Positions 7,740-36,742 of a stretch of DNA of 36,913 nucleotides are shown one piece after another (within the stretch, counting starts at the first letter, position 1; every line of letters starts with the position of its first letter). The notes below the pieces were generated by a model. The model saw only the letters and a list, made by a program, of their open reading frames with translations, was not told the DNA's origin and ran no database searches. The position numbers and the translations under genes were made by a program. Source of the DNA: an uncultured Caryophanales bacterium (GTDB taxonomy: Bacteria; Bacillota_I; Bacilli_A; RF39; UBA660); contig CAMOID010000007.1 of NCBI GenBank assembly GCA_946615975.1, positions 1-36,913 on the forward strand, read 5' to 3'.

Positions 7740-7752
7740 TCTTTGATGTAAT

Positions 7753-7818: not shown

Positions 7819-8538
7819 ATGGCATTTGTTGATAAGGTATATCCATTTACTACTGAAAGTATATCTGGTTATATTAAACATATGGATGTTAAAGATAAGA
7901 GAGTATTAACTGTAGGATCTTCAATGGATCAAGCATTAAATGCTTGTTTATATGGTTCTAAAGATGTAATGGTTATGGATATAAATGAAGGTACTAAAGA
8001 TTATATGCAATATAAATTACATTTATTAAATGAAAGTGATACTAGAAGAGATTTCTATGATGCTATTTCAAATACAAAAGAATTTAATTTATCTAAAGAT
8101 GAAATGTTTTCTTTTGAAGCATTAAAAAGAATGTCTCCATATATGGCAAGTGAAGATAGTTTCACTTTATTAAAGAATAATATTAAAGAAACTAATTTTG
8201 ATTTTATACCTGGTAATATATATGATATGGATGGTGTATTAGGAGATAGACAATACGATAGAATTATATTATCTAATGTCTTACAATATATTAATTCATG
8301 TCGTGGTAATATTCCAATTTATCAATTTATAAAAGATAATTTTGATCAATTTTGTAATCATTTAAGTAAAGATGGAATATTACAATTAATGTATATATAT
8401 GCTTTTGAAAAGAATAATCACTTTGAAGGATATAGCACAATTGATGTATTAAGAGCATTAGAAGGTAATATTTTAGAAATAGTAAAATTTGAATCAGGAT
8501 CAAAAGAAGATGCTGCAATTCTTTATACCAAAAAGTAA
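7819..8538 (+). CDS. Rossmann-fold methyltransferase-like protein
   Basis: The N-terminal third reads like a SAM-binding fold: a glycine loop in 'RVLTVGSSMDQAL', an acidic strand end in 'VMVMDIN' and a strand 4 in 'YDRIILSNVLQYI'. The glycine loop is degenerate, with Ser and Met replacing the usual GxGxG glycines, so catalytic activity is uncertain. The 239-aa protein has no membrane segment. A GGGGAGA ribosome-binding site and a near-consensus promoter suggest steady expression. It resembles DUF3419-type or other uncharacterised methyltransferase-like proteins, but I cannot assign it to one. Confidence 0.65.
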   Translation: MAFVDKVYPFTTESISGYIKHMDVKDKRVLTVGSSMDQALNACLYGSKDVMVMDINEGTKDYMQYKLHLLNESDTRRDFYDAISNTKEFNLSKDEMFSFEALKRMSPYMASEDSFTLLKNNIKETNFDFIPGNIYDMDGVLGDRQYDRIILSNVLQYINSCRGNIPIYQFIKDNFDQFCNHLSKDGILQLMYIYAFEKNNHFEGYSTIDVLRALEGNILEIVKFESGSKEDAAILYTKK

Positions 8539-8558
8539 GATAGATATCTTACTTTTTT
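8530..8558 (+). terminator. Intrinsic terminator overlapping the stop codon
   Basis: AAAAGTAAGAT (8531-8541) pairs with ATCTTACTTTT (8546-8556) around a four-base loop. The stop codon at 8536-8538 is in the left arm. Confidence 0.85.
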
Positions 8559-8560
8559 AA

Positions 8561-8569
8561 TGCTATAAT
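8561..8569 (+). promoter_or_regulatory. Extended -10 promoter of uvrB
   Basis: TGC-TATAAT lies directly after the upstream terminator and just before the AAAGGAGGA ribosome-binding site. Confidence 0.65.
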
Positions 8570-8592
8570 ACATTTATGAAAGGAGGAATAAT

Positions 8593-13708: not shown

Positions 13709-13737
13709 TTGCCAAAATAAGAAAAATTTGCTATAAT
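13709..13737 (+). promoter_or_regulatory. Strong promoter of the OLE-type RNA
   Basis: TTGCCA (13709-13714), a 17-base spacer, then TGC-TATAAT with the -10 at 13732-13737. This is among the closest to consensus in the window and puts the RNA start near 13744. Confidence 0.85.
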
Positions 13738-13743
13738 GCTTAT

Positions 13744-14260
13744 ATGTGTGGTGCATTATGCTAGTCATTATACTATTTGAAGGTGGGGCTAAAAATCCAC
13801 CAGAATGTCGAATGACACTTTGCTATTTTGCTTCTTCTGCCCAAGTTGGGGTGAGATAGTAATTTAAGACATAAGGATAACTACAATGGCATGTAGCTGA
13901 TAATTCCTTATATCGCGTCACTCAGCAATGAGAATAATATAATACGTACATGATGTGAGTGTTGATCTGGGATTAGCTGTAAACAGTTATGAAATGATTA
14001 ATGCAAAAGCATATAAGAATAGTCACTTATGTTAGGGAAAACCTCTAGCGTGTATATACTATAGGTATTGAGGTGCGGACTAAGTGGTAATCGAGACGTT
14101 AAGTAGTGATGCTTAACAACTTCCATTAAAACGAAAGTGCTTTAGAGTAATCAAGAGTTGGAAGTTGAGAAACTCTTCTCGACCTAAGCCGTAAATTTGA
14201 TTTATAGTATACCATACAAATAGACTTTAATTTGGGGAAGAACCGAGTTGAAGTTTTTTT
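13744..14260 (+). ncRNA. ole: Large structured RNA, probably OLE RNA (ornate large extremophilic RNA)
   Basis: About 515 nt lie between a near-consensus promoter and a terminator, with no credible reading frame and more G and C than its surroundings. Hairpins are plain: GGTGG/CCACC (13782/13797), TGTC-GAAT-GACA (13806-13817), AGG-GAAAA-CCT near 14035, GTTAAG/CTTAAC (14098/14112) and GTTGAG/CTCGAC near 14165. TATACTATA (14055-14063) can pair with TATAGTATA (14203-14211) over a long range. OLE RNAs are about 600 nt, bind the membrane protein OapA and are usually encoded just upstream of it. The next gene here fits OapA, and that adjacency is the main ground for the name. I did not match the sequence to the OLE consensus base by base. 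ROOL-type RNA is the alternative. Confidence 0.72.
14224..14260 (+). terminator. Terminator at the 3' end of the OLE-type RNA
   Basis: ACTTTAATTT (14224-14233) pairs along its full length, with G-T wobbles, with GAGTTGAAGT (14245-14254). GG/CC extends the stem on the loop side, and seven T follow. Confidence 0.8.
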
Positions 14261-14309: not shown

Positions 14310-14837
14310 ATGAAAAGACATGATAATTGGATACTAATTGTATTTATTTTAACATTTATACTTTCTATAATTTTTAGTGCTATATCAAATGTAATGGCAG
14401 CAACTTTTAATGAAATTGTATTAACAATACTATTAATAGCTACTATAGCGTTTGGTATATTATTTGATGTAATTGGTACAGCAGTAATATCTGCAAATGA
14501 AGCATCATTTCATGCTTTAAATAGTAGAAGAATTAAAGGTGCTAAACAAGGTTTATTTTTAATTAAAAATAGTTCTAGAATATCTTCTGTATGTAATGAT
14601 ATAGTAGGTGATGTATGTGGAATTATATCTGGTGCTTTAGGTGCTATGATTGCTATATCTTTAAGTACTAGATTTGGTATTAATAATACTATTATAAGTA
14701 TTATAGTTTCAGCTTTTATTTCATCTATGACTGTAGGTGGAAAAGCTATATTTAAGAAAGTAGCATTAACAAGTGCTGATAGTATTACATTAACTGTATC
14801 AAAAGTATTAAGTAAATTTAGAATAGGTGGTAAATAG
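14310..14837 (+). CDS. oapA: OapA-like integral membrane protein (OLE RNA partner)
   Basis: The 175-aa protein has about four hydrophobic segments (near 8-30, 36-60, 100-118 and 124-144). Between the second and third lies a polar basic loop: 'FHALNSRRIKGAKQGLFLIK', then 'NDIVGDVCGIISG'. From memory, this layout and the 'D-V-I-G-T-A-V' helix end followed by a charged 'FHA...KGAK' loop fit OapA and related DUF21/CNNM-like membrane proteins of Clostridia and Bacilli. OapA dimers bind OLE RNA and bring it to the membrane; the complex is linked to Mg2+, cold, alcohol and energy stress. It sits 49 bases after the RNA's terminator. The SDR gene starts on the base after its stop, so they form an operon. 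Confidence 0.72.
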   Translation: MKRHDNWILIVFILTFILSIIFSAISNVMAATFNEIVLTILLIATIAFGILFDVIGTAVISANEASFHALNSRRIKGAKQGLFLIKNSSRISSVCNDIVGDVCGIISGALGAMIAISLSTRFGINNTIISIIVSAFISSMTVGGKAIFKKVALTSADSITLTVSKVLSKFRIGGK

Positions 14838-19795: not shown

Positions 19796-19824
19796 TTGAC
19801 TACATTAAATATTAGTAGTATAGT
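19796..19824 (+). promoter_or_regulatory. Promoter of the unassigned structured RNA
   Basis: TTGACT (19796-19801), a 17-base spacer and TATAGT (19819-19824), which puts a transcript start near 19831. Confidence 0.8.
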
Positions 19825-19830
19825 TAAGAT

Positions 19831-20204
19831 ACTTAGTAAGGTAACGAACTAAGAAATGAAAATTATTTATTTGTGGCTATATTCCAAACTATAGTTTCAT
19901 TAATATTTTCATTATATGTATATTGTATACTTCGACTAGAATATACAAATACATGATTTATTATTTAGCGTTTCTGAGTGTTGACTTATGAACGGGATGT
20001 TTATATTTTGATATTTGGAACTTCTGTTACCAGATGCCAAGAAATTGGTCTTAACAAGCTACTAAGTACTGATCGATCAATAGAGAAAGAAAACTCGTAA
20101 TTTTAATTTGTTAAGCATTTTTTACAAACGTGGCTGACATCACATAGTAAAAAGTGATCTCTCAAAACTAGAAAATATATAGTTGTCAGCTATATATTTT
20201 TTTT
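19831..20204 (+). ncRNA. Unassigned structured non-coding RNA of about 375 nt
   Basis: The gap from 19685 to 20288 has no credible coding frame. Apart from the two promoters at its left edge, it holds one RNA unit running from a promoter to a terminator. Pairings visible by eye are CTTAGT/ACTAAG (19832/19848), AATGAAAA with TTTTCATT around 19855 and 19906, ATGTAT/ATACAT (19916/19949) enclosing GTATA/TATAC, and CCAA-GAAA-TTGG (20037-20048), a GNRA-capped hairpin. CTTAACAA (20050-20057) pairs with TTGTTAAG (20108-20115), and ATCAC/GTGAT lies near 20140/20154. I see no hallmark of tmRNA (no resume tag or T-arm), RNase P, SRP, 6S or T-box RNA. It may act in trans or as a leader of the surface locus starting 85 bases downstream. 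Confidence 0.65.
20172..20204 (+). terminator. Terminator of the unassigned RNA
   Basis: AAAATATATAG (20172-20182) pairs perfectly with CTATATATTTT (20190-20200) around TTGTCAG, followed by four more T. Confidence 0.88.
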
Positions 20205-20258
20205 GTGCTAAAATTTTATGAAAACTTTACTATTTTTAATGCAATTTATAATTTTTTT

Positions 20259-20293
20259 TGTTATGATAATAGAGAAGGATGATGATATATGAA
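20259..20293 (+). promoter_or_regulatory. Promoter and start region of the first giant surface protein gene
   Basis: TGT-TATGAT (20259-20267) is an extended -10. The start region AGGATGATGATATATGAA (20276-20293) is identical to that of the X1 gene at 24292-24309, although the two proteins are unrelated. Confidence 0.6.
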
Positions 20294-23200
20294 AAAGTTT
20301 CTAACTTTTGTTATTGTGTTTTTAATGAGTTTTATGTGTATGAAAGGAAATGTGTTTGCTAAGATTACTGCAACTTTAGAATCTAGTAAAGGTAAAGAAG
20401 CAACTTACAAACTAACTTCTAGTTTTAAATATACTAAAGTATGGGCTGAAGTTGGTACTGGTGTTTCTAAAGCTGAAGTTATATGGAATGCTGATGGTAT
20501 TTCTGGTAAGCTTAATGTTACTTTCTCATCACCTGATTGTATTGGTGATGTAACACTTAAATATGATGGTAGTGAAGGATGCGACAAGAGTACTCCTAAA
20601 AATTGTCAAGCTATTCTAGATGATGCTAGAAGTATGGTTGGCAAGATTCCTTATGAAATGGGTGGTAAATGTTCTGCTAAAGATTACGCTCAATGTAAAT
20701 TTGGAACTAAATATACTGATGAAGCATCTTATAATTCAACAAGAGCAATGATAAATGCTAATGGACAAATAAGAGCTTATTCACCAGCATTTACTGATAA
20801 CTTAAAAAGATTTGAAAATAGCTATGCATTAACTGGATTAGACTGTTCTGGTTTTGTATGGTGGATGTTCTTTAGAAATGGATATGACCTAGTTGGTAGA
20901 GGAACTCCTCTTCAAAGTTCAGCATATTCTGGTGTAGCTAATATTACATCTGGTTCTAGTCTAGTATATGCAATTACAAAAGCTGAAGCAAAACCTTGTG
21001 ACTTAGTTACAAGTAAGAAACCTGAAAATCATTCTATACCTCACGTTGGTATTGTTTCTTCAACACCAAATGAAGGAGGATGGAAATTCATCCATGAAAA
21101 TGGATCAGATGCAAATGTAGCTGAAAATAATTACTTTGATAGAGCTGAAACTGAATTAAAATTAAAAGTTTTATATTGGAGAGTTAAAGCTTTATGGGAA
21201 GGTACATCTGAATCATCTGATGATACATGTAACGGTTCTGAACCATTACATTTAGATAATCATGAATTATGTACATGTGAAACATGTGATAATATTGAAA
21301 TAAAAAAAGATTATATAGATGGAGAAGCTTCTAAGATTAATAATTGTTGTATTGATGGAAGTTCTCATATTAAAGAATATTATGTAAGTCAATTATTCTG
21401 TAGTGATGAAGACTATAATACTAAAGTAAAATATTATAAAGATCAATGTAATAATGACTTATATGAAGATGATGTATTAAAGACATTAGGAAATGAATAT
21501 TGTAAGATTTATTGTACTGAAGAATTAGATTTAGAAACACCTAAACCAATTGAATCAGCTACTGGTAAATTCTTCAAATTAGCTGAATTAACTTATACAG
21601 ATTTAGATGGTAATGAAAAGACTACTAAAGCACCAGTTATTGGTGGTAAGAAGACATGTACTATCAAGATCAATTATGATACTTGGAGAAGAGATTATGA
21701 AAATTCTATTAAAGCTGAAATTACAGAATATAATCTATTACAAGAAAATTTAGCAAATTATGAGTTATTAAGAGATCCAATAGTAACTACAAAAAATCTT
21801 GATCAAAGTGTTAATGTAGCATGTACTGCTAAAAATGATTCTTATAGAATTAAAACTAAACATGTTGATAAAGGTTCTACATATTATGATAAGAATGGAA
21901 ATTCAAATACATGTTCTAGCGATGGTGGTTGTGATGTTGATGACTACGTTGGTACTAATTCATCATATACCAATTCATCTGGAGCAAGTGCAACATGTGG
22001 ATCTACAGTATGTGCAAATTATGAAGCATATAAAGAAACTAAGAATGAAAGTGTAAGTTGTACAAACACTTATACAGAATATAAAGTTAATACTTCAGGT
22101 AAAGGACATGGTATTAGCTGTAATGATAAAACTTGTTCAATTGATTATTATCAAGTTAAATCAAATAATTCATTTACTGATGGTAAATCATTCAATGGAT
22201 TAACAATTGAATCAGCTGGTATAAAGAAGGCAACATCTGACTTAATAACTGCAAAAGCTGGAACAGATAATTGTACTACAGCTGTTAACAATAAGATTTC
22301 AGGTGAATCAGGAAGTTGGAGTTGTGAAGCATCTTCAGAAGCAAAGAAAATACCTGATGGTGTTAAAGAATTAGATATGTCTGCAAAAGCTCAAGAATAT
22401 TACAGTAGAGCAATTACTGATAATAATTCGAATGCAAATAACTTAGCAAGTTATACTGCATCAGCAACAACATTAGAAGATGGAATGATTAAATGTCAAA
22501 CAATGTTCCATGATGAAAGTTTAGCTGCTGAATCTACAACATCTCATTCATCAAGTAATTACTTTAAATTAAATCCAAGTACTAAATTCAAGTACTTACA
22601 AGTATATTTAAATAATAACGTTAAGAACAAAGATTGGTCAGAAATTGATTATGGTTCTGCAAAATGTGATTATAGATTTAAAAATACTGGTGTTGATGAT
22701 TTAGATAGTGTTGATCAATATTATTCAACAACTAAATATCATGTTGGTTCTGAAGTAATGAAAGACTTAAAACCAGATAATACTTATATTTCTAATCCAA
22801 ATCAAATCCCAGTTGACGATGCTAAAACAATTGAAAAGAAATTTAGACAAGATGCTGAATATGATGCTCAATGTAATTGGGACGATGCACCAGTACCTGA
22901 AGAAATTACATTATATCCAGGACCTCAAGTTAAAGATATAACAGCAAGATCAGGTGAAGTATTAATTACTAAACATAAATATCAATATGCATTATATGTA
23001 ACAACTTATGTTACTGAATATGAAACATATTGGGAATTAAAAGATATTGGTGGTTCACAAAGAACTAAAGATAAATTTATTAAAGCATTCAACGATGCCG
23101 GAGGAACTTGTGCTGAAAATGGTGCAGCATACTCTGATGGTGGAGCTGAAGTTAGAGAAACTGATAATACTAAGAACACTTGCTTCATCAAAGTAAAAGA

Positions 23201-23780
23201 TGGTGGTATGAGAATCGGTTCATGTGAACGTGGTATCGGTGATATTGAAGATCATTGTGAAGATAATGATGTAAGAGAAGTATTTGAATTTAGAATTGTT
23301 GATCCAAAATCAATCTTCCCAAGTGGCGATTGGTCAGACAAGGCACATAACTGGAAGAATGATGCTGGTGATTGGGGTACAACAAAGAATGCAATTGAAA
23401 CAACTGCAGCATCTGATGCAACATATTCTAAAGATAATTTAACTTATTCATTCAGACTTAATACTACAACATTAAAAGCAATTAAAGATTATAATGATAC
23501 AACTACATATGATGATTTCGATTTAACATGTACTTGTCCAAGCGAATCTGATATTGATAATAGTGGATGTGGTACAATTGATAAACCAGTTTCATCAGAT
23601 TGTTTAATAACAGAAGATGGAAGAACAAAATGGAAATACACTTGTAGAAAGTGTAAGAGCGATTTCTTAAGAAACTTAGCTGTTAATAATAGAGTAGGTA
23701 CTACAACAGTAACTGCTTCATGGAATAATAAAGATACAAGTTTCTTAGATGTCCAAAATAATAAAAATCATTGGGCATAG
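20289..23780 (+). CDS. Giant cysteine-rich secreted protein with NlpC/P60-type domain (giant protein A)
   Basis: The 1163-aa protein has a signal peptide (about 1-25, cut near 'VFA-KI'). An N-terminal hydrolase-like domain follows, with its presumed nucleophile C186 in 'LDCSGFVWW' and histidines H252 ('PHVGIVSS') and H269 ('FIHENG'), as in NlpC/P60. A cysteine-rich middle ('CTCETCD', 'NNCC', 'YCKIYC', 'SATGKFFKL') and a long C-terminal region ('TLYPGPQ', 'HKYQYALYVTTY', 'DGGMRIGSC', 'EVFEFRIVDPK', 'CRKCKSDFL') are shared with the protein at 27581. It ends in 'NHWA', with no LPXTG, membrane helix or wall-binding repeat. It is probably held by its membrane-anchored partners and braced by disulfides (inference). 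The 146-aa gene follows after 10 bases, with GGAGG overlapping the stop. Confidence 0.78.
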   Translation: MKKFLTFVIVFLMSFMCMKGNVFAKITATLESSKGKEATYKLTSSFKYTKVWAEVGTGVSKAEVIWNADGISGKLNVTFSSPDCIGDVTLKYDGSEGCDKSTPKNCQAILDDARSMVGKIPYEMGGKCSAKDYAQCKFGTKYTDEASYNSTRAMINANGQIRAYSPAFTDNLKRFENSYALTGLDCSGFVWWMFFRNGYDLVGRGTPLQSSAYSGVANITSGSSLVYAITKAEAKPCDLVTSKKPENHSIPHVGIVSSTPNEGGWKFIHENGSDANVAENNYFDRAETELKLKVLYWRVKALWEGTSESSDDTCNGSEPLHLDNHELCTCETCDNIEIKKDYIDGEASKINNCCIDGSSHIKEYYVSQLFCSDEDYNTKVKYYKDQCNNDLYEDDVLKTLGNEYCKIYCTEELDLETPKPIESATGKFFKLAELTYTDLDGNEKTTKAPVIGGKKTCTIKINYDTWRRDYENSIKAEITEYNLLQENLANYELLRDPIVTTKNLDQSVNVACTAKNDSYRIKTKHVDKGSTYYDKNGNSNTCSSDGGCDVDDYVGTNSSYTNSSGASATCGSTVCANYEAYKETKNESVSCTNTYTEYKVNTSGKGHGISCNDKTCSIDYYQVKSNNSFTDGKSFNGLTIESAGIKKATSDLITAKAGTDNCTTAVNNKISGESGSWSCEASSEAKKIPDGVKELDMSAKAQEYYSRAITDNNSNANNLASYTASATTLEDGMIKCQTMFHDESLAAESTTSHSSSNYFKLNPSTKFKYLQVYLNNNVKNKDWSEIDYGSAKCDYRFKNTGVDDLDSVDQYYSTTKYHVGSEVMKDLKPDNTYISNPNQIPVDDAKTIEKKFRQDAEYDAQCNWDDAPVPEEITLYPGPQVKDITARSGEVLITKHKYQYALYVTTYVTEYETYWELKDIGGSQRTKDKFIKAFNDAGGTCAENGAAYSDGGAEVRETDNTKNTCFIKVKDGGMRIGSCERGIGDIEDHCEDNDVREVFEFRIVDPKSIFPSGDWSDKAHNWKNDAGDWGTTKNAIETTAASDATYSKDNLTYSFRLNTTTLKAIKDYNDTTTYDDFDLTCTCPSESDIDNSGCGTIDKPVSSDCLITEDGRTKWKYTCRKCKSDFLRNLAVNNRVGTTTVTASWNNKDTSFLDVQNNKNHWA

Positions 23781-24242
23781 GAGGTAAAAGATGAAAGAAA
23801 GTATGTGGGGATATTGGTTCATAGTTTTAGGACTATCAATCATGTCAGTAATGATGTTATTACAAAACTATACAACAACAAATGAACAAGATTATTACTT
23901 AATAAAGAATGTACTAGAAGCAAGTATGTATGAATCAGTAGATTATGCATATTTCAGAGATACATCAAGAATAAGAATGAATACAGAGAAATTTGTTGAA
24001 AACTTTGTAAGAAGATTTGCAGAGTCAGTAAATATCAATAAAACATATGATATAAACTTTTACCAAATCTATGAAGATCCACCAGCTGCATCAGTAGAGA
24101 TAAAATCTGATGGAGATGGAAAAGAAGGAAAAGTAGAAGCTGATGATACAGTAACAAATAGATTAACAGGAATACTATACACAAACCAATTCTATAATCC
24201 AAGTGTAGTAGTATTTAACCCTGAAAATTAATCAAATAAAAA
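23768..24242 (+). repeat. Exact 475-bp direct repeat, copy 1
   Basis: Identical by line-by-line comparison to 31168-31642, at a constant offset of 7400. It starts in the last codons of the giant protein gene, spans the whole 146-aa gene, and ends just after its stop. Confidence 0.95.
23791..24231 (+). CDS. Pilin-like small membrane protein, 146 aa, copy 1
   Basis: The N-terminus is short and polar ('MKESMWG'), followed by a hydrophobic helix (about residues 8-25) that runs into a helical 'NYTTTNEQDYYLIKNVLEAS' stretch. A mixed extracellular domain of about 100 residues follows, without cysteines. This outline resembles TadE-like or pseudopilin subunits; I also associate it, from memory and uncertainly, with the DUF5411 family. 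It has a perfect GGAGG ribosome-binding site overlapping the stop of giant protein A and is co-transcribed with it. A second copy, identical in DNA, follows the paralogous giant gene at 31191, so each giant has its own adjacent copy. Confidence 0.78.
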   Translation: MKESMWGYWFIVLGLSIMSVMMLLQNYTTTNEQDYYLIKNVLEASMYESVDYAYFRDTSRIRMNTEKFVENFVRRFAESVNINKTYDINFYQIYEDPPAASVEIKSDGDGKEGKVEADDTVTNRLTGILYTNQFYNPSVVVFNPEN

Positions 24243-24267
24243 ACAACGTTTATCGTTGTTTTTTTTG
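24238..24267 (+). terminator. Terminator after the first giant/pilin-like pair
   Basis: AAAACAACG pairs with CGTTGTTTT around TTTAT, followed by a long T-run. The stem core resembles that after 25845. Confidence 0.9.
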
Positions 24268-24274
24268 TTTATTT

Positions 24275-24283
24275 TGATATAAT
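24275..24283 (+). promoter_or_regulatory. Extended -10 promoter for the X1-Y1 pair
   Basis: TGA-TATAAT lies eight bases after the preceding T-run and 22 bases before the X1 start codon. Confidence 0.6.
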
Positions 24284-24304
24284 TATAATAGAGGATGATG
24301 ATAT

Positions 24305-25024
24305 ATGAAGAAAACGTTAAATTTTGCATTAACTTTTTTACTTGGTATGTTTGGGGTTATAGGTTTTGTAAAGGCAGATACTAGTAAGTGTACTTCTGAA
24401 ATGAAGTCTGAATTTTCTAAATCAGTTGCTTCTGCAAGTGCATCTTATGAATTTGTTTATGATGATGCTGGTAATGTCAAAGGATTTGATATTACAGTAT
24501 ATAATATTCCAGATAAGATGAATGTATTGTATTCTACTAACGTAGAAGAAAATAAGAAAAGTGGTAGTATCAAAATTGAAAATGGAAAAGGTAAAGTTTA
24601 TGATGATAACTTAACTGATATTTATAGTTATAGTATTGAAATCTATTCACTTGAAACAGGATGTAATTACAAGGTTAAAACTTTAAAAGTTGTTAAACCA
24701 AAAAGAAACACTTATAGTGATTCAGTTTATTGTTCATATGATGAAACTGAAAAATCATCTTATTGTGAAGAATGGATAACAAGAGAAATTAATAAGTCTT
24801 TAGATGAAGTAGAAGAAATCTTAAAGAAGAACTTAGTAAAATCTACTACTACTGAAGCAACATCAAAATGTGTTGATTGTGGTTTAGATTCAATAGGTTA
24901 TTCATTAAAAGATTTCTATAAGAAATATAAATATACAATTATAATTGCTACAGTATTATCTATTGTACTTGTTGGATTTGCAATTGTATTATTAATTAAG
25001 AGTGGAAAAGGTGGTGTTATCTAA
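24305..25024 (+). CDS. Surface ectodomain protein X1 (signal peptide plus C-terminal anchor)
   Basis: The 239-aa protein has a signal peptide (about 1-24, 'FVKA-DT'), a beta-rich ectodomain and a membrane helix at about 213-233, followed by a short basic tail. It is a paralogue of the protein at 25913: both contain 'YEFVY/SEFVY', 'GF-x-I/Y-x-VYNIPD' and 'DDNLTDIYS'. Before the helix lies 'KRNTYSDSVYCSYDETEKS' then 'YCEEW', a two-cysteine motif also present in the Y proteins. An additional 'CVDC' pair precedes the anchor. Its stop overlaps the Y1 start (TAATG), so the two are probably made in equal amounts and may form a heteromer. Unknown function. Confidence 0.75.
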   Translation: MKKTLNFALTFLLGMFGVIGFVKADTSKCTSEMKSEFSKSVASASASYEFVYDDAGNVKGFDITVYNIPDKMNVLYSTNVEENKKSGSIKIENGKGKVYDDNLTDIYSYSIEIYSLETGCNYKVKTLKVVKPKRNTYSDSVYCSYDETEKSSYCEEWITREINKSLDEVEEILKKNLVKSTTTEATSKCVDCGLDSIGYSLKDFYKKYKYTIIIATVLSIVLVGFAIVLLIKSGKGGVI

Positions 25025-25845
25025 TGGACTTTAATAATGAAGAAACACCTAAATTAAATTTAGGAAAAGAAAAAAGAATGGCAAATGCCAATAGTCTTCC
25101 AATTGCAATTTTAGCAATTGTTGGACTTGTATTAATTGTTGCGTTAGTATTCTTTATATTCTATAAACCAGATGATAATGCTATTTCAGATAAAGTAGAA
25201 ATTAGTTTAAATGTATCTGATGTAAAAGTTGGTGAATCATCATTAAAATGTGAACCAGATGAACAAGCAATTAAAGATGCTCAAAATATTAAACTATCTT
25301 ATAAAAAATCAGAACAAACATATTACTATGGTAATTACACTGATTTAATTGATGATAATGGAGATTATGTTGATCCTGGAAAAGATAAATATAAACAAGG
25401 TGTTGAAATGGTTATTGAAAATATAACTGATAATATTTATGTTTATATTGAATTCACTGGTAGTACAGGTGATGCAGATGGAATGAAATATACATCTAAA
25501 GAAGCAGAAAATGGTAGAGTAGTAAAATCGTTTAATGCATTTAAAACAACTGATGTAAGTGTATATGTATATGAAAATAATGAAAATTGTGAAAGATTAT
25601 TAAAACATTATGATGTAATTTTACCAAGATATAATGTTTTATCTACTGATAAAAAATGTTCTACTAAAGTTGGACAAGAATCAAAATACTGTGCTGAATA
25701 TACTTATGAACAATTTGATGAAAAAGTATTAGATAAGCTTGAAGAAGGTAAAAAAGAAGATTCAAGTATTGATGTAGTATCAATTGTAATAGTATTTGTA
25801 TTATTCGTTATTGGTGGAGTAGTAATATTCATAAAACTTAGATAA
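25024..25845 (+). CDS. Surface ectodomain protein Y1 (membrane helix at each end)
   Basis: The 273-aa protein has a cytoplasmic head of about 26 residues, a membrane helix near 27-48 and an ectodomain. That carries the shared motif 'LPRYNVLSTDKKC' followed by 'YCAEY', and a second membrane helix near 250-270 closes the protein. Its ectodomain resembles those of X1, X2 and, most closely, Y2 ('NITDNIYVYIE' here, 'NVTDNLVVEIT' in Y2). The start codon overlaps the X1 stop by one base. Function unknown. The two anchors would hold the ectodomain flat against the membrane (inference). Confidence 0.75.
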   Translation: MDFNNEETPKLNLGKEKRMANANSLPIAILAIVGLVLIVALVFFIFYKPDDNAISDKVEISLNVSDVKVGESSLKCEPDEQAIKDAQNIKLSYKKSEQTYYYGNYTDLIDDNGDYVDPGKDKYKQGVEMVIENITDNIYVYIEFTGSTGDADGMKYTSKEAENGRVVKSFNAFKTTDVSVYVYENNENCERLLKHYDVILPRYNVLSTDKKCSTKVGQESKYCAEYTYEQFDEKVLDKLEEGKKEDSSIDVVSIVIVFVLFVIGGVVIFIKLR

Positions 25846-25871
25846 AAAAACAACGTTTAGTTGTTTTTTTT
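25844..25871 (+). terminator. Terminator of the X1-Y1 unit
   Basis: The short CAAC/GTTG core is extended by A-tract/T-tract pairing, with eight T at the end. The stop codon lies at the base of the left arm. Confidence 0.78.
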
Positions 25872-25883
25872 ATTGCAAATAAT

Positions 25884-25892
25884 TGGTATAAT
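25884..25892 (+). promoter_or_regulatory. Extended -10 promoter of the second cassette
   Basis: TGG-TATAAT, 21 bases before the X2 start. It would drive the four-gene unit to the terminator at 31638. Confidence 0.6.
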
Positions 25893-25912
25893 AATGTATA
25901 AGAGATGGTAGA

Positions 25913-26659
25913 ATGAAAAGAGTAAGTGTTTATTTAATTATATTTATTTTATGTTCTTTTATTTTCGTACCGATAGTATGTGCAGAAGATGAAGAAGAAC
26001 AATCAACATGTGACTCTGTTAAATTAAGAGATCTAAAGAAACAAGCCGAAAATGTTACGGGAACATCCGAGTTTGTATATAACAATGATAATCAAGTAAT
26101 AGGATTTAATTATGTTATATATAATATACCGGATGATATGTATGTAACTTATACTGGAATGAAATCTCAAAAAGTAGATACTTTAGAAATTAGTGAAAAT
26201 GTTGTTGTTGATCCTGAAACTGGTATTGGTAAAGTATTTGATGATAACTTAACTGATATTTATAGTGTTATATTTACAGTTTATCAAAAGTCAGCAGAGT
26301 GCGTAGATAAGCTCTATACATTTAGTATTAAAAAATTAAGATATAATAGTTATTCAGAATTAGAATTATGCCAATACGAAGGACTTGAAGATTATATATA
26401 TTGCCAACCTTGGGTTGATACAGAATTCCCATATAGTTCTGAAGAAGTTAAAAAAAGAATAGAAAGCAAAATAAAAAATGAACAAGAAAAAACAAAATCA
26501 GAATGTGTTTCTTGTAGTGAAAATCAAAAAAATGAAGAAGAATATAACAAATTAGTTATGATTAGAAGTATTGTTATATTTGGATTAATATCAGGAATCA
26601 TAATAGATTTAGTTGTTATAATTAATCTATTTAGAAAGGTTGGAGAGAATAGAATATGA
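25913..26659 (+). CDS. Surface ectodomain protein X2
   Basis: Paralogue of X1, 248 aa: signal peptide (about 1-24, 'IVCA-ED'), ectodomain with 'YNIPDDMYVTY' and 'DDNLTDIYS', then the shared motif 'LRYNSYSELELC' and 'YCQPW'. A 'CVSC' pair precedes the C-terminal membrane helix near 218-240. Its stop is the only TGA in the window and is part of the ATGA overlap with Y2; readthrough would add only four codons before a TAG. The overlap mirrors the coupled X1-Y1 pair. Promoter: the extended -10 at 25884. Confidence 0.75.
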   Translation: MKRVSVYLIIFILCSFIFVPIVCAEDEEEQSTCDSVKLRDLKKQAENVTGTSEFVYNNDNQVIGFNYVIYNIPDDMYVTYTGMKSQKVDTLEISENVVVDPETGIGKVFDDNLTDIYSVIFTVYQKSAECVDKLYTFSIKKLRYNSYSELELCQYEGLEDYIYCQPWVDTEFPYSSEEVKKRIESKIKNEQEKTKSECVSCSENQKNEEEYNKLVMIRSIVIFGLISGIIIDLVVIINLFRKVGENRI

Positions 26660-27579
26660 AAAAGAAAATAGAAAAAGAAGAAAATAACTATTCACATGAA
26701 TATGCTCCAGTTATTAAAGCATTTATAGTTTTATTTATTTTAATTGCTTTATTAGTTGGTGTCATATATTATCAACCTACTAGAAAACCTTTAGTTGAAG
26801 ATCCAAATACATTAAAAACAAATGAAAAAATTGTTAATACTGATACAACTTGTGATGGTAATAATGCAAAAAATATTAAAAATGATGCTGATAAAGTATC
26901 TTTAATATATGAAGTGGTAGATGATTACTTTTTTGGTTATATGGCTGAAAGTGATACTGACTTAAATGAAAATGGAATAATTGATGAAGAACCAGTTATC
27001 GAAAATATTGGTTATGCATTAAGATTAAAGCTTTTTAATGTTACTGATAATCTAGTTGTTGAAATCACTAATAATATTGATGATACTGTTAAAACATTCC
27101 GTAGTACAGATGTTACTCAGGATGGATATATTACATGGTTTGAAAGTGAAAATGTTTTCATGAGAACTTACACTGTTAAAATATATTCAATAAATTGTAT
27201 TGATCAATTATATCGTGAATTTACTGTTGATCTTCCAAAATATAATTATAATTCAAGATCTATGGATTGTTCTTATGAATTCACAAAAGATTTAGAGGTT
27301 TGTCAACCATTTATCTTTAGTAATGCAACTGAAGCTACAGAACTAAAAAAATTCAGATCTGAAATTCAAAAAGCGTATAAAGAATATCAAAAGGGAACGA
27401 CTACTACAGTTCAAATAGATACTGAAGAAAAAGATGATAATAAAAATAATAATAAATATGAAGAGATTGTTGAAAAAATAACAAATATTGTAAAAGACAA
27501 TTATATTACTGTTGGAATTATATGTAGTGCGATATTGGTACTAGTAATTATAGTTATTATAAAGAAAGGAAGAAAATAA
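26656..27579 (+). CDS. Surface ectodomain protein Y2
   Basis: Paralogue of Y1, 307 aa: a Lys/Glu-rich cytoplasmic head, a membrane helix near 21-42 and an ectodomain with 'NVTDNLVVEIT'. The shared motif is 'LPKYNYNSRSMDC' with a second cysteine in 'VCQPF'. An extra Asp/Asn/Lys-rich linker ('EEKDDNKNNNKYEE') precedes a second membrane helix near 283-303. It overlaps X2 by four bases. The giant protein B gene starts two bases after its stop, so X2, Y2, giant B and the 146-aa gene form one tight operon. Function unknown. Confidence 0.75.
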   Translation: MKKKIEKEENNYSHEYAPVIKAFIVLFILIALLVGVIYYQPTRKPLVEDPNTLKTNEKIVNTDTTCDGNNAKNIKNDADKVSLIYEVVDDYFFGYMAESDTDLNENGIIDEEPVIENIGYALRLKLFNVTDNLVVEITNNIDDTVKTFRSTDVTQDGYITWFESENVFMRTYTVKIYSINCIDQLYREFTVDLPKYNYNSRSMDCSYEFTKDLEVCQPFIFSNATEATELKKFRSEIQKAYKEYQKGTTTTVQIDTEEKDDNKNNNKYEEIVEKITNIVKDNYITVGIICSAILVLVIIVIIKKGRK

Positions 27580-27580
27580 T

Positions 27581-30500
27581 ATGAAAAAGAAAATATTATT
27601 TGTAGCCTTATTAATTATTAGTATATTAACTATTGATAATATATATGCTGCTACACCTTCAACATCTTTTTATGCAACAGTAAGAAGTGTTGGTCGTGAT
27701 GGTGCTGATACAAATTGTACATACACTGCAAATACAGGACACTATAGTACTAATATTTTTAAAATAAAGGCTTCTAATGTAGAATATGATGCATTTTGTA
27801 TTGATCCAGGTAAAGGAATTCCTGGAGGAAATTTAACTTGTGAAATGATGGATTCATCATCTTATCCAATGATATATGCTAGTCTTTTAAATCAATCGTT
27901 AATGGGTGAAGGTCAACTTGTTAAGGATATCGTTTTTAGAACACTAGGTATAATGGAAAGACAATCATTAGTATTTACTGAAACTGGATCAACTGGTGAA
28001 TTTAATACTAATAAAAATAATGTAATCTTAACATTGTTATGGGCTCGTAAAGTATCTGAGCATGGTATTGCTGTTCCTGGTCCACAAAATTTTGATTATC
28101 CTAAAGGTGGCGTTTGGGATACAGCTGGTGGCTATATAGGAAATGCTATTCAATATTGGACTGGTAATTATACTGGAGATAGAACACCACCTCCAACTAA
28201 TACAGAAAATCTTGCTGGTATTAAAGAAACATCTGGTTTAATTGGTAACTATTTTAAATTAGAAAAACTTTCAACAGATCCAGCAAATCCAAGATATAGA
28301 GTAACTACTTTATCTGGTGGTCAAGCTGCAGAAGTTGTAATAAGTGGTGTAGATGGTACAGTAGTTAATGTTGAACAACCATGGAATGGAACTAGTGCTA
28401 TATTTTCTTATAAAGTACCAAGATCTAAGGAATGTTTAGGTAAAGCAATGATTAGTGGTGTTATACCTGGAGTTGCAACAATGGGCGATGTACCATATTT
28501 ATGTAGTGCTTCTGGAAATACACAATCATATGTTGCTTTGATGCCTGGTAATGCTACTGATAAATTTACTAATCTTCCTGTTGAAGATTGTAATTCATGT
28601 GATGAGCATGATCATAAAGAAGAGAAAGAGTCTGGTACAACTAGTACTAATTCTGTAGATGGTAGTCATCTAGAAACAATTGATGTAAGTCTTTGTTGTT
28701 TAGATTCTACGCATTCATTTATGGAAGAATACAAAATAGATGATTTATATGAAGCAACTACAAATACATATATTGATGTTAATTATTATACAAATAAATG
28801 TGGTAATGATGATTTCTACGATAAAGAATTAAATGATAAGTTAAAAGAGTATACAGGAAATATGGAAACTACTACAGAAAAAGTTGAAAACTATTGTAGA
28901 GTACTTTGTGTTGAAAATATGGCTGTCGATGTTCCTGGTTCTATTAGTTCTGCTACTGGTAAATATTTTAAATTAACTGAAGTAGAAGGTGGTGGAAAAG
29001 GTCCTAAGATAAAAGGAACTAAAGCATGTCGTATAAGAATCGATTATAGAACATTAAGAGCACATTATGAACAAGCTATAAATGGTAAAGTTACAGATGG
29101 AAAAAATAGAGGTATAAGTAATGCAAACGATGGAGAAGTATATTGGTTTAATAAATATCAAGATGAACAAGCTTGGGCTGATTTATTAAATAATCCACAA
29201 GCAGAGCATAGAACACATACTGCTCATCCAACTAAAATGACTTTTACAAGAGACGTTTGTACTAAATCGAAAACTTATACAGCTGCTCCTGGAAAGTCAG
29301 TTAACGTTTATTCTTATAATTCAGATGGTAAATGTTCTAGTTATACTGAAAAAGCATGTGCTTCAACAGAAACTAAAAACTGTGAATTTTCTGGTTACGA
29401 AAATGAACAAGAATCGAAAGAATCAACACCTAGAGCTTGTACAACAACATATGACACTTATGAAATTAAACCCAAATCTTATTTAGGTGCATCATCTTCT
29501 GGTAGTGGAGCTTCACAAGAATACACAGTAAAATATTATGATATATATTCTAGGGTCGATTTTCCATATGGTTCTAATTCGTTTTCTGGTGTTGACATTA
29601 AAACTAATACTACTACACATACACATACATATAGAAGATATTCTAAGTATAATTTAAATGTCTCTGATTGTACTGCTGCTGTAAATGCTACAGTTGCTAA
29701 TTATCCATCAAGCAAAGGATGGTCTCATACAGGTGGTAGTATTGATGGAGATCAATATGAAACAACACATAAAGATTATAAAACACAAAATCCTGCTTCA
29801 AAATGGTCGACTCATTCTAGTAGTGCATCTACTGCGAAAACTAATTTTGGAAATAAGAAAAGAATGGCTAATGACTTAGAAAAAATAATCAAAGGTTGTG
29901 AAACGTTCTTTGATTCGCAACCTGAAGGATATGATTTGAATATAACTGCTAATTTCCATTACATGCAAGTATATTTAGATGCTAATAGAAATAATGCTCA
30001 ACAAGAATATACTGTTCCATTTGGAACTGTTAAATGTGGTAGTGGATGTGATTGTCCAAAAGTAGTTAATAATCAAGCAACTTCAGGTATATTTAAACAA
30101 GCAACTGAACAAATGAAGGATGTTAAGGAGCTACCAGAACAAATTATTAAAGCTGCTCAAGATATGAATGATACAGCTGCTCCATTTGAAAAGAATGTAA
30201 GAGAAGATATTGTCTACACTGCAACATGTCAATTCCCAGATCCTGCTGAGGATGGTCAAATGACATTATATCCAGGACCTCAATATCAAAGTGGAACATC
30301 TATAAGTGGAGAATTATTAAATAAAGCAACTGGACATAAATATCAATATGCATTGTTCTTAACAACTTATAGTACTGATTACCAAACATGGTGGGATATT
30401 TCTGGATTAGGAACAAAGAGAACAAAAGATAAATTTATGCATGAATTCAATAATCATGATACATGTGCAACTTCAGGAGAAGGAAAAGCATTATCAACTG

Positions 30501-31180
30501 GTGGTGCTGAAAATTTAAAAAAAGGTGTTTCAAAAGTACCTTTCACTTGTACTTTACAAGTTCGTGATGGTGGTATGAGAATTGGTTCATGCTGTACAAA
30601 CTTAACTTCTGATTTAAATGGATGTTGTAAAACATTTAATAATAATGAAGTATTTGAATTTAGAGTTGTAGATCCAAAGAATATGTTCCCAGGTGGTATG
30701 TTTAAAGCTTCAAATATAGCAAAGAACTGGAAGAAAGATGATGGAACATATGAAACTGCAAGAACATATAAGAAAATACATGATGATGCAGTTGCAGATA
30801 AAACATATTCTAAAGAAAACATGACATATTCATTTAGAATTGATACTAATGCTATTAGATTAATTAAACAATATAATGATACTCATGATTATGATTCATT
30901 TGATAATAATAAGACTTGTACATGTAATAGTGGTCCTGAAGATGATTCCTGTGGAACTATCACACCTGGAGGATCTTGTCAATCAGGCGATACATGGACA
31001 TATTCATGTAGCAAGTGTAAGAGTGATTTCTTAACATCATTAAGTGATTCAATTGGTGTAATTCCTGGTGTAGGAAATACAAGTAAGAAAATTTGGAATT
31101 CAGTTAAATTTACAAGTATTGCTTCACTTAGAAATGATGATAAATCAAATGAATATACTGCAGGAGTTCATTGGGCATAG
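27581..31180 (+). CDS. Giant cysteine-rich secreted protein B, paralogue of giant A with a different N-terminal module
   Basis: The 1199-aa protein has a signal peptide (about 1-24, 'IYA-AT'). Its N-terminal ~200 residues are unrelated to giant A and lack an NlpC/P60 site. They contain 'YDAFCIDPG' (C73) and 'ILTLLWARK' (W154), which recall the Cys and Gln-x-A-hydrophobic-Trp motifs of thioester adhesin domains. The Gln position is Leu150, so no thioester bond is expected if the alignment is right. From about residue 340 it follows giant A: 'SATGKYFKL', 'TLYPGPQ', 'GHKYQYALFLTTY', 'DGGMRIGSC', 'EVFEFRVVDPK', 'CSKCKSDFL' and a final 'VHWA'. There is no anchor. It probably works with X2, Y2 and the 146-aa protein encoded beside it. 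Confidence 0.75.
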   Translation: MKKKILFVALLIISILTIDNIYAATPSTSFYATVRSVGRDGADTNCTYTANTGHYSTNIFKIKASNVEYDAFCIDPGKGIPGGNLTCEMMDSSSYPMIYASLLNQSLMGEGQLVKDIVFRTLGIMERQSLVFTETGSTGEFNTNKNNVILTLLWARKVSEHGIAVPGPQNFDYPKGGVWDTAGGYIGNAIQYWTGNYTGDRTPPPTNTENLAGIKETSGLIGNYFKLEKLSTDPANPRYRVTTLSGGQAAEVVISGVDGTVVNVEQPWNGTSAIFSYKVPRSKECLGKAMISGVIPGVATMGDVPYLCSASGNTQSYVALMPGNATDKFTNLPVEDCNSCDEHDHKEEKESGTTSTNSVDGSHLETIDVSLCCLDSTHSFMEEYKIDDLYEATTNTYIDVNYYTNKCGNDDFYDKELNDKLKEYTGNMETTTEKVENYCRVLCVENMAVDVPGSISSATGKYFKLTEVEGGGKGPKIKGTKACRIRIDYRTLRAHYEQAINGKVTDGKNRGISNANDGEVYWFNKYQDEQAWADLLNNPQAEHRTHTAHPTKMTFTRDVCTKSKTYTAAPGKSVNVYSYNSDGKCSSYTEKACASTETKNCEFSGYENEQESKESTPRACTTTYDTYEIKPKSYLGASSSGSGASQEYTVKYYDIYSRVDFPYGSNSFSGVDIKTNTTTHTHTYRRYSKYNLNVSDCTAAVNATVANYPSSKGWSHTGGSIDGDQYETTHKDYKTQNPASKWSTHSSSASTAKTNFGNKKRMANDLEKIIKGCETFFDSQPEGYDLNITANFHYMQVYLDANRNNAQQEYTVPFGTVKCGSGCDCPKVVNNQATSGIFKQATEQMKDVKELPEQIIKAAQDMNDTAAPFEKNVREDIVYTATCQFPDPAEDGQMTLYPGPQYQSGTSISGELLNKATGHKYQYALFLTTYSTDYQTWWDISGLGTKRTKDKFMHEFNNHDTCATSGEGKALSTGGAENLKKGVSKVPFTCTLQVRDGGMRIGSCCTNLTSDLNGCCKTFNNNEVFEFRVVDPKNMFPGGMFKASNIAKNWKKDDGTYETARTYKKIHDDAVADKTYSKENMTYSFRIDTNAIRLIKQYNDTHDYDSFDNNKTCTCNSGPEDDSCGTITPGGSCQSGDTWTYSCSKCKSDFLTSLSDSIGVIPGVGNTSKKIWNSVKFTSIASLRNDDKSNEYTAGVHWA

Positions 31181-31642
31181 GAGGTAAAAGATGAAAGAAA
31201 GTATGTGGGGATATTGGTTCATAGTTTTAGGACTATCAATCATGTCAGTAATGATGTTATTACAAAACTATACAACAACAAATGAACAAGATTATTACTT
31301 AATAAAGAATGTACTAGAAGCAAGTATGTATGAATCAGTAGATTATGCATATTTCAGAGATACATCAAGAATAAGAATGAATACAGAGAAATTTGTTGAA
31401 AACTTTGTAAGAAGATTTGCAGAGTCAGTAAATATCAATAAAACATATGATATAAACTTTTACCAAATCTATGAAGATCCACCAGCTGCATCAGTAGAGA
31501 TAAAATCTGATGGAGATGGAAAAGAAGGAAAAGTAGAAGCTGATGATACAGTAACAAATAGATTAACAGGAATACTATACACAAACCAATTCTATAATCC
31601 AAGTGTAGTAGTATTTAACCCTGAAAATTAATCAAATAAAAA
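31168..31642 (+). repeat. Exact 475-bp direct repeat, copy 2
   Basis: Identical to 23768-24242. The flanking sequences diverge at once: the upstream giant genes are only paralogous and the downstream terminators differ. Confidence 0.95.
31191..31631 (+). CDS. Pilin-like small membrane protein, 146 aa, copy 2
   Basis: Base-for-base identical to the gene at 23791, including the GGAGG ribosome-binding site that overlaps the giant gene's stop. One N-terminal hydrophobic helix is followed by an extracellular domain. Identity at synonymous sites, next to diverged giant genes, means either very recent copying (gene conversion) or a collapsed assembly. It closes the second cassette and is followed by a bidirectional terminator. 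Confidence 0.78.
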   Translation: MKESMWGYWFIVLGLSIMSVMMLLQNYTTTNEQDYYLIKNVLEASMYESVDYAYFRDTSRIRMNTEKFVENFVRRFAESVNINKTYDINFYQIYEDPPAASVEIKSDGDGKEGKVEADDTVTNRLTGILYTNQFYNPSVVVFNPEN

Positions 31643-31666
31643 CGAGATATTAAATCTCGTTTTTTT
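31638..31666. terminator. Bidirectional terminator at the end of the surface locus
   Basis: AAAACGAGAT pairs with ATCTCGTTTT around ATTAA. It converges with the CapA-like gene. Confidence 0.9.
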
Positions 31667-31667: not shown

Positions 31668-32918
31668 TTATCTAAATTCTTCAGGAATAATTCTAGTATA
31701 TAAATTATTTATATATGTCTTATTTAATCCTGTGTTATACATATAATGATTTGTTTCATAAGTATCATTATACATAGATAAAGGAATCATTCTAAAGTCT
31801 TTTTTATCTTTATTAAAATAATTAATAATAGGTTCTGTTGTTATTTTATTAAATGTAACTTTATTATCATTTAATTCTATATCTAAGTTAGCTAGTAATG
31901 CAATTTGATAAGCTTTAACATAATCTGGACCAGCACGTCCATCTAAATTATCATCTGCTGAAGTAAAATTACCAAGAGAGTAGAATACTAAAGTTTTGTA
32001 ACCATCATCACTTGTATACCATTCAATAGGTTGCATACAGTGTGAATGTGAACCTAAAACAACATCAACTTTTTCTTCATTTAATAATTTTGATAAAGCA
32101 TGTTGATCAACTTCACGTTCTTCAAAATGGAATTCTTGACCCCAGTGCATTATTGCTACTAGAACATCACATTCTTTTCTTAATGCTCTTATTTCTTTTC
32201 TCATTAATTCTTTATTTTCTTCAGATATAACATTATAACTTGGAGGATTTCTATATAATCCTAATCTCCATGATTCTTCATTTGTAATATATTTACCAAA
32301 GTCATTCATACCTAATGCATAAGCAATAAATCCAACTTTAACTCCATTAATTTCTTTTATTCTAAAGTTAGCTCTGTCTTCTTTAGATTTATAAGAACCA
32401 ACTGACATTATGTTAGTATTATTTTTTAAATAATCTATTGTATTATTAATACCATCAATTCCTCGATCAGTTGAGTGATTATTAGTTGTACCTAAGACAT
32501 CAATAGAATTATTATTTAATCCTTGTATTATATTTTGAGGAGTACAAAATTCATATCCATATCCATTTACTTTTAAATTATTATTATCAGTAATGGTTGT
32601 TTCTAAATTACCAATTGTTATATCATCTTTCTTAAAATATTTATCTCCAACCATCGATAGATATGTATTTGGATCATCACCTTGATTAATTGAATCTAAG
32701 TATAATCCTTCAAACATTATATCTCCAATTAAAGTTAAATTAACTTTCTTTTTAACTTCTTTTTTCTTTGTAATCTTTTCAATTATATTTGAATCATTAT
32801 CATCTTTATTACTATTTTTATTATGATCTACTATATATCCATATATAAGAGTAATACCTACTAATAATATTACAAATATGAACTTCCAAATAGGTTTAAT
32901 TCTCTTTCTTTTAGCCAT
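31668..32918 (-). CDS. CapA-family membrane-anchored metallophosphatase-like protein
   Basis: The protein has a Lys/Arg-rich head ('MAKRKRIKPIWK'), a membrane helix near 13-32 and a polar Asn/Asp/Lys linker. The CapA (PGA_cap) calcineurin-like fold follows: 'IGDIMF', 'IGNLETTI', 'TNNHSTDRG', 'IMHWGQEFHF' and 'GSHSHCMQP'. CapA/PgsA proteins take part in polyglutamate or other capsule synthesis. Without pgsB/pgsC genes nearby, the substrate here is uncertain. I choose the ATG at 32918, preceded by GGTGAT, over the upstream ATG at 32945, which would add 'MIKYIYGDN' ahead of the basic head. A minus-strand TGA-TAAAAT near 32936 may be the promoter, divergent from recX. Confidence 0.88.
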   Translation of the reverse strand: MAKRKRIKPIWKFIFVILLVGITLIYGYIVDHNKNSNKDDNDSNIIEKITKKKEVKKKVNLTLIGDIMFEGLYLDSINQGDDPNTYLSMVGDKYFKKDDITIGNLETTITDNNNLKVNGYGYEFCTPQNIIQGLNNNSIDVLGTTNNHSTDRGIDGINNTIDYLKNNTNIMSVGSYKSKEDRANFRIKEINGVKVGFIAYALGMNDFGKYITNEESWRLGLYRNPPSYNVISEENKELMRKEIRALRKECDVLVAIMHWGQEFHFEEREVDQHALSKLLNEEKVDVVLGSHSHCMQPIEWYTSDDGYKTLVFYSLGNFTSADDNLDGRAGPDYVKAYQIALLANLDIELNDNKVTFNKITTEPIINYFNKDKKDFRMIPLSMYNDTYETNHYMYNTGLNKTYINNLYTRIIPEEFR

Positions 32919-32959
32919 ATTATCACCGTAAATATATTTTATCATATATTAATATTATA

Positions 32960-36013: not shown

Positions 36014-36742
36014 GTGAAGAAGTTTCTAAATTCTAATCATTTAAAATTAATTGCTATTATAGCAATGACAATTGATCATTTAGCTTGGTTATTATTTCCA
36101 GGTTTTCAAACAGCGTGGTATGTTGTATTACTTCATGTGATAGGTAGATTAACAGCACCTATAATGTGGTTCTTTATAGTAGAAGGATATAATCATACAC
36201 ATAATTTAAAAAAATATATAACTAGATTATTTGCATTTGCTATTGTATCTCATTTTGCTTATTGCTTTTGTTTTGGAATATCATTTATTCCAAATTCAAT
36301 CTTTAATGCAACAAGTGTATTATGGTCTTTAGCATGGTCTGTTGTATTAATGGCAATCTTAGATAATCAAAAGATTAATAAATATTTAAAGATATTATTA
36401 TTTATAGGTATATTCCTAATTACATTCCCAGCTGATTGGAGTTGTATTGCAGTATTTGCAATTATATTTATGAATAAGTATAAAGATAACTTCAAGAAGA
36501 AGATGTTAATGATGATGGTTGGAATAATAATGTATGTAGCTGTTTATTATTTCTGTATAGATCATTTCTATGGATTATTACAATTAGCAACAGCATTAAC
36601 AATACCTATATTATATTTCTATAATTCAGAAAGAGGTAAATTAAATTTAAAATATTTATTCTATGTATATTATCCTCTTCATTTAGTTATAATAGGTATA
36701 ATAAAAATAATAGTATATGGAAATATTAAATTATTATTTTAA
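36014..36742 (+). CDS. TraX family membrane protein
   Basis: The 242-aa protein has about seven hydrophobic segments and the TraX signature near its start: 'HLKLIAIIAMTIDHLAWLLF', then 'GRLTAPIMWFFIVEGY', 'HTHNLKKYITRLFAFA' and 'SHFAYC'. F-plasmid TraX acetylates pilin. Chromosomal homologues in Bacillota have no conjugation genes around them and are probably acyltransferases of envelope components; the substrate is unknown. It uses a GTG start with AAAGGA upstream and is the third gene of the rRNA-modification unit. No conjugation gene is present here. Confidence 0.87.
   Translation: MKKFLNSNHLKLIAIIAMTIDHLAWLLFPGFQTAWYVVLLHVIGRLTAPIMWFFIVEGYNHTHNLKKYITRLFAFAIVSHFAYCFCFGISFIPNSIFNATSVLWSLAWSVVLMAILDNQKINKYLKILLFIGIFLITFPADWSCIAVFAIIFMNKYKDNFKKKMLMMMVGIIMYVAVYYFCIDHFYGLLQLATALTIPILYFYNSERGKLNLKYLFYVYYPLHLVIIGIIKIIVYGNIKLLF

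Follow-up and report, generated by a model that had tools for sequence, protein, structure and literature searches.

Paired cassettes of giant cysteine-rich proteins as candidate alternative tips of a divergent Tad-like machine in uncultured gut Bacilli

The window considered in this study, a stretch of 36,913 nucleotides (contig CAMOID010000007.1, assembly GCA_946615975.1) from an uncultured Caryophanales bacterium, carries two parallel gene cassettes, each encoding a giant cysteine-rich protein (giant A or giant B), an identical small membrane protein of 146 amino acids (p146), and a pair of membrane proteins termed X and Y. This raises the question of why one genome holds two such sets, and whether their products form a free-standing envelope complex, as a sequence-only reading of the same DNA had proposed, or are parts of a larger machine. 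It is considered probable here that the two cassettes encode alternative tips for a divergent Tad-like (type IV filament) machine; we infer that p146 is a constant minor pilin (TadE/G-type) and that the giants are interchangeable tip adhesins.

All eight open reading frames (ORFs) of the two cassettes were confirmed, and all are encoded on the forward strand. The first set consists of giant A (20289..23780), p146 copy 1 (23791..24231), X1 (24305..25024) and Y1 (25024..25845), and the second of X2 (25913..26659), Y2 (26656..27579), giant B (27581..31180) and p146 copy 2 (31191..31631). The sets are homologous: the giants match each other at 5e-93 (phmmer) and X1 matches X2 at about 1e-28, while the two p146 proteins are identical. 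X and Y overlap in both sets (by 1 nt in X1/Y1 and 4 nt in X2/Y2), and 10 nt separate each giant from its own p146. Signal peptides and 36-42 cysteines are found in both giants, which end in ...HWA and lack LPxTG, a lipobox and, by hydropathy, any hydrophobic segment besides the signal-peptide-like one, whereas p146, X and Y each have one or two transmembrane-like segments. The sets are probably transcribed as three units rather than two (giant A-p146, X1-Y1, and X2-Y2-giant B-p146), since terminator-like hairpins follow both p146 copies (24238..24264 and 31638..31664, forward strand) and a hairpin-T run follows Y1 (25846-25875). The sequence-only reading had described this architecture correctly in most respects; its four protein families do recur together, but they are three in number, since X and Y are homologous.

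A survey of relatives combined with a scan of a genome collection, i.e., metagenome-assembled genomes (MAGs) of uncultured gut and rumen Bacilli, yielded about 110 loci. The cassette is far beyond chance, its components being found again in dozens of further genomes. In most genera the gene order is X, giant, p146, a CpaB-like gene, a CpaF-like ATPase and two membrane proteins at the positions of TadB and TadC, followed by one or two Flp-like, two TadE/F-like, one TadZ-like and one two-transmembrane protein. Among p146 genes with enough flanking sequence, a giant lies beside p146 in 56 of 58 testable cases and X/Y lies upstream in 53 of 58, so that the families do travel together. The giant-to-p146 gap is at most 22 nt in all but two measured pairs, and X in most cases adjoins the giant or overlaps it. 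The ATPase directly follows p146 in 42 of 59 cases, the exceptions falling mostly in the genus of the window and its close relatives.

In the genome of the window itself, the machine is divided into three loci on three contigs. Contig C18 holds the motor, which comprises two CpaB-like genes, the ATPase (7736-9397) and the TadB-like and TadC-like genes, and contig C12 (6131-9083) holds TadE/F-like, Flp-like, TadE/F-like, TadZ-like and two-transmembrane genes. The motor is nevertheless present in all 11 tested members of this genus that bear DUF5411, the family to which p146 belongs. Over 50 genomes the ATPase was found in 29 of the 30 with DUF5411 and in 3 of the 20 without it (p=2e-9); of these three odd cases, two lie at contig ends, so that one true exception is left in each direction, G069 and G088. 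A further genome that seemed to lack the system, G024, proved uninformative, because part of a TadC gene, along with pilin genes, is found at the edge of its contig. The notion of a free-standing complex does not survive this context, given that most relatives place the same genes at the head of a CpaF-like ATPase/CpaB-like operon; a tie of the giants to a known system such as Tad, which that reading had named as evidence against itself, is largely what was found. The machine is little studied and very divergent from known Tad, and the giants had no previously assigned role. Secreted giants with membrane-bound partners remain a fair description, and the sequence-only reading is best regarded as having seen a real, conserved unit while missing its context.

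The constant component of the cassettes, p146, is a DUF5411 protein (PF17424, 1.6e-51, 174 bits against a Pfam cut-off of 30) with one N-terminal transmembrane helix. DUF5411 is present in 320 of 385 genomes of the window's family and in 107 of 121 genera sampled, and none of the other families in the class sample has it above the cut-off. The two p146 genes lie in a DNA-identical block of 475 bp (23768-24242 and 31168-31642) that spans the last codons of the giant to just beyond the p146 stop codon. In five of six two-cassette genomes the p146 pairs are 99-100% identical despite differing giants, and near-identical p146 DNA beside widely differing giants occurs in the window and in loci L114, L116, L117 and L134. 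These four other MAGs rule out an assembly artefact as the sole cause of the identical pair, although only one p146 copy is present in the sister species G006. The duplicates are read as the outcome of gene conversion, or of a very recent homogenisation, acting on this small gene. At their N-termini, p146, the Flp-like proteins and the TadE/F-like (E) proteins have in common the motif M[KR]E[SA], and p146 aligns with the E proteins there by profile comparison (70%). Neither p146 nor the TadZ-like protein has a match in PDB. In five loci (L034, L038, L131, L160 and L174) p146 continues into an additional region fused to its C-terminus, giving proteins of 392-576 amino acids in total.

The giants are by comparison variable, and their variation is concentrated at the N-terminus: pairs from six two-cassette genomes are 24-40% identical in the first quarter and 40-71% in the last. 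A conserved C-terminal Trp is found in 66 of 91 giants as compared with 36 of 450 other ORFs (p=1e-37). Giant A carries an NlpC/P60 domain at residues about 182-280 (Pfam NLPC_P60, 1.1e-5, 25.8 bits against a cut-off of 23), within which the Cys/His-containing motifs LDCSGF, PHVGIV and FIHENG start at residues 184, 251 and 267, respectively; the remainder includes the Cys-rich core common to giant B. For giant B, X and Y, Pfam and NCBIfam returned nothing usable. The predicted model of giant B was compared by VIA-align, in which the best five matches (model residues 28-339) are all thioester domains (Z 8.0-9.4), class II thioester domains take the top two places (Z 9.4 and 9.2), and unrelated sandwich domains score 6.9 and below. 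Thioester domains are defined by Cys and Gln motifs (PMC4450167, PMC6194298), which in class II consist of Cys in [YFL]C-hydrophobic-hydrophilic and Gln in a weak hydrophobic-Q motif. The former is present in giant B (F72-C73-I74-D75), and the latter reads T314-Q315-S316-Y317-V318, without a hydrophobic residue ahead of Gln. The N-terminus of giant B (residues about 28-339) is therefore predicted from its modelled fold, which includes the beta-sandwich insert, to be a class II thioester domain with Cys73 and Gln315 as the putative motif residues. Among 89 giant N-termini, Pfam gave one weak TED_2 match and two NlpC/P60 matches, and a loose pattern of the type [YF]C[IVLM]DP occurs near the start of 60 of 103 giants. 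SLH domains were matched neither in the window proteins nor in the N-terminal parts of the giants, with one weak Slr4 match among the 89.

X and Y form a single family (hhalign profile-profile probability 100%) with four invariant cysteines in the alignment. X1 and X2 have a signal peptide, an immunoglobulin (Ig)-like sandwich with conserved cysteines and a C-terminal transmembrane helix, the fold of X1 being taken from its paralogue X2, for which a beta-sandwich with a C-terminal helix is predicted at a pLDDT (model confidence score) of 88. Y1 and Y2 are X paralogues with transmembrane helices at both ends. Foldseek of X2 against PDB returned generic Ig-like or sandwich neighbours only, without a significant match. 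A match of X1 to pLS20_p028 was dropped, as it was not reproduced in other family members.

How Tad-like is the machine to which the cassettes are linked? Its ATPase matches T2SSE at 4e-27 and aligns at 99.8% (hhalign) with canonical CpaF from the same bacterial family, and its closest solved structures are VirB11 and CpaF, both at about 5e-19. The CpaB-like protein, encoded next to the ATPase, matches TIGR03177 (1.7e-7) and PF16976 (4e-4), both under the curated cut-offs. The E proteins align with canonical TadF at 50.6% probability (hhalign), and p146 does not. On these sequence comparisons, Tad homology is clear for the ATPase and CpaB only; the machine is called Tad-like here, and membership of Tad proper is not claimed. 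The family also has a canonical Tad locus (TadE/F, TadZ, CpaF, TadB, TadC) in five genomes (L203-L207), of which three encode a KGQALVEY Flp that is confined to that separate locus. Since G026 and G011 hold both the canonical locus and the DUF5411-type machine, the two filament systems can coexist. The prepilin peptidase domain PF01478 was detected in 12 of 14 relatives tested, outside the operon.

In the proposed mechanism, p146 would sit at the filament tip as a TadE/G-type minor pilin, and the C-terminal core of the giant, often with its conserved terminal Trp, would dock on it. A role for p146 as a minor pilin on which giants dock is suggested because a constant small membrane protein is paired with a variable partner whose C-terminus is conserved, and because p146 has the M[KR]E[SA] motif and the N-terminal alignment with the E proteins. 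Docking by a common core would allow different giants to be mounted on one machine, leaving their N-terminal modules exposed and swappable. The membrane-anchored, Ig-like and probably disulfide-bonded X/Y proteins may hold or fold the giant ahead of loading, after which the CpaF-like ATPase and the TadB/TadC-like proteins would push the tip outward. Giant A could then open peptidoglycan by means of its NlpC/P60 domain, and giant B could attach itself covalently, via its predicted thioester, to host or microbial surfaces. More tentatively, and with somewhat less confidence than is given to the window itself, it may be proposed that a divergent type IV filament machine exists lineage-wide in uncultured gut and rumen Bacilli, with a constant DUF5411 minor pilin kept identical by gene conversion, very large interchangeable Cys-rich tips that differ in their active module (thioester for covalent adhesion, NlpC/P60 for cutting the wall), and expression possibly controlled by an RNA that is described below.

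Several observations weigh against this reading. Although the TadB/TadC-like proteins fit in size and position, Pfam gave no T2SSF match for them, and hhalign detected no similarity between them and canonical TadB/TadC; the TadZ-likeness of the TadZ-like protein is weak as well. The Flp-like proteins read MKEATGELNMTV... with no E at +5, i.e., the canonical G/xxxxEY pilin site is absent, and PF01478 was not found in the window's genome, which is 70% complete. No homology between p146 and canonical TadE/F was detectable, the similarity of p146 to the E proteins being N-terminal alone. The predicted model of giant B is of moderate quality (pLDDT 67), and Foldseek of the whole protein gave no match at E<1e-3. 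Moreover, the linkage is broken in G069, which keeps X-giant-p146 without the ATPase, and in G088, which keeps the ATPase and X without DUF5411. In G069, an open frame of >3000 amino acids without cysteine lies convergent to X-giant-p146 (L194, 1-9083).

The same components could be arranged differently. The CpaF-like machine might act with p146 as a pseudopilin, i.e., as a short piston that exports or displays the giants as cargo and never builds a long pilus. This would accord with the giants being the largest and most variable genes, with the separation of the Flp-like block from motor and giants in the window's genus, and with the prediction that a related Clostridia operon is secretion-related (PMC9523054). 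The giants, however, come with Sec signal peptides, and in a cell with one membrane there is no obvious need for a pseudopilus to get them out; the close coupling of giant and p146, like the conserved C-terminal core, suits a stably mounted tip better, which makes pseudopilus-type secretion unlikely. The model of the sequence-only reading, a membrane-anchored adhesin complex in which X/Y and p146 hold the giant and which would be independent of the machine in the window's genus, draws on part of the same separation, as the cassettes of this genus lie on another contig than the motor and pilin genes; G069 and the absence of an anchor in the giants point the same way. It is considered rather improbable, since the motor accompanies DUF5411 in every tested member of the genus and since outside the genus the cassette lies within the motor operon, with one exception in 30.

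The near-equal closeness of the ATPase to VirB11 and CpaF also allows for a conjugation or VirB11-type transfer machine, whose thioester domain (TED) adhesins would establish mating contacts as on plasmid pLS20. Class II TED adhesins do serve conjugation in B. subtilis (PMC8092201), and the two-transmembrane protein of the operon weakly matches T4SS_pilin (8e-5, below cut-off). Such a machine is nonetheless very improbable: the mapped operons contain no recognisable VirB4, coupling protein or relaxase, and the near-universal vertical presence of DUF5411 in the family, together with a fixed chromosomal neighbourhood in the genus, is unlike that of a mobile element.

Returning to the tip cassettes of a Tad-like machine, the closest described relative of the operon is found in Roseburia, Ruminococcus and Eubacterium, where Miller et al. 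2022 (PMC9523054) predicted a secretion-related DUF5411/CpaF/PilC operon of 8-9 genes. As there, DUF5411 lies beside a CpaF-type ATPase and a large surface-type protein (internalin-like in that case) is encoded; that operon belongs to Clostridia, and the published account, as far as it details the operon, describes no Cys-rich giants, thioester, NlpC/P60, X/Y, split cassettes or duplicated p146. The tip module appears to be undescribed and has no described function; a DUF5411 and CpaF operon had already been predicted in Clostridia. By analogy, the best precedent for swappable, separately encoded tips is the Kil (Tad) pilus of Myxococcus xanthus with its four interchangeable KilLMN tip clusters (PMC12075869). 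In both systems, tip genes would occur as several paralogous clusters, not all of them beside the motor, and would supply large, variable proteins to a Tad-type machine. The large tip protein of Kil (KilN/TadG) is one of the pilin-like membrane proteins, whereas the giant carries a signal peptide, lacks any membrane helix and would have p146, a small protein encoded apart from it, as its pilin; furthermore, the Kil host is diderm and the window's host a probable monoderm. In Caulobacter, the Tad pilus includes the vWA-containing minor pilin CpaL (PMC12607857), and here too a large adhesive/sensing module is proposed to be at the pilus tip with minor pilins; its vWA is fused to the pilin module, whereas the thioester or NlpC/P60 is part of a separate secreted giant. 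The best structural matches of giant B are class II thioester adhesins, such as BaTIE, SaTIE and EfmTIE86 (PMC6194298) and TIE-pLS20 (PMC8092201), which likewise have an N-terminal domain with Cys and Gln motifs after the signal peptide. These have CnaB stalks and a sortase or unknown anchor, as opposed to the long Cys-rich core, missing sortase motif and p146/CpaF-like linkage of giant B. If the tip reading is true, DUF5411, the Cys-rich giants and X/Y would gain a role in a genome-reduced gut family of which most sampled genomes carry them, and there would be a monoderm counterpart of swappable Tad tips as well as an example of a type IV-type filament that bears covalent thioester adhesins.

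Giant A is preceded by a gap of 600 bp that contains a conserved structured RNA of about 375 nt (19829..20207, forward strand), with promoter-like hexamers at 19796-19824 and a terminator at its 3' end. The RNA precedes the cassette in nine genus members with comparable coordinates as well as in G031, and its members are the window, L111, L113-L120, L122, L123 (two tandem copies) and L141; the window copy scores 134.9 bits against the RNA model R1, and Rfam has no match for it. Covariation is strong: a fixed structure for the 3' part, applied to 14 sequences, is 97.5% paired and has 18 doubly changed pairs, compared with 9.2 in shuffles and 5-11 in slid versions. The loop of the terminator, TGTCAG, is the complement of a CTGACA further upstream, forming a pseudoknot. 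Every sequence also has a perfect palindrome of 8-12 nt between TACTAAGT and GAGAAAG; because the palindrome is kept while its sequence differs, pairing between two RNA molecules is suggested.

Weaker copies of the RNA were found in L228 (8720-8881, reverse strand), L229 (7130-7298, forward), L230 (3018-3179, forward) and L131 (15230-15385, forward), one of which keeps the pseudoknot pairing with a changed sequence (CTGATAA/TTATCAG). They lie 56-103 bp upstream of unrelated genes, namely, a membrane protein gene in two genomes, a pyruvate formate-lyase-like gene, and a gene inside a Tad-like operon. As these genes are on the same strand, the element may be a cis-acting leader. These patterns suggest a candidate new pseudoknotted RNA, and one might guess that it acts in cis as a terminator switch.

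Outside the cassettes, the window contains an OLE RNA (RF01071, 235.8 bits) at 13732-14231 on the forward strand. The gene ahead of it encodes a DHH-CBS-DRTGG pyrophosphatase-like protein, and the one behind it (14310-14837) encodes a small membrane protein, in the position expected of an OLE-associated protein gene. Downstream of the cassettes, a TraX-family protein (PF05857, 1e-27) is encoded at 36014-36742 and a PGA_cap capsule-type protein at 31668-32945.

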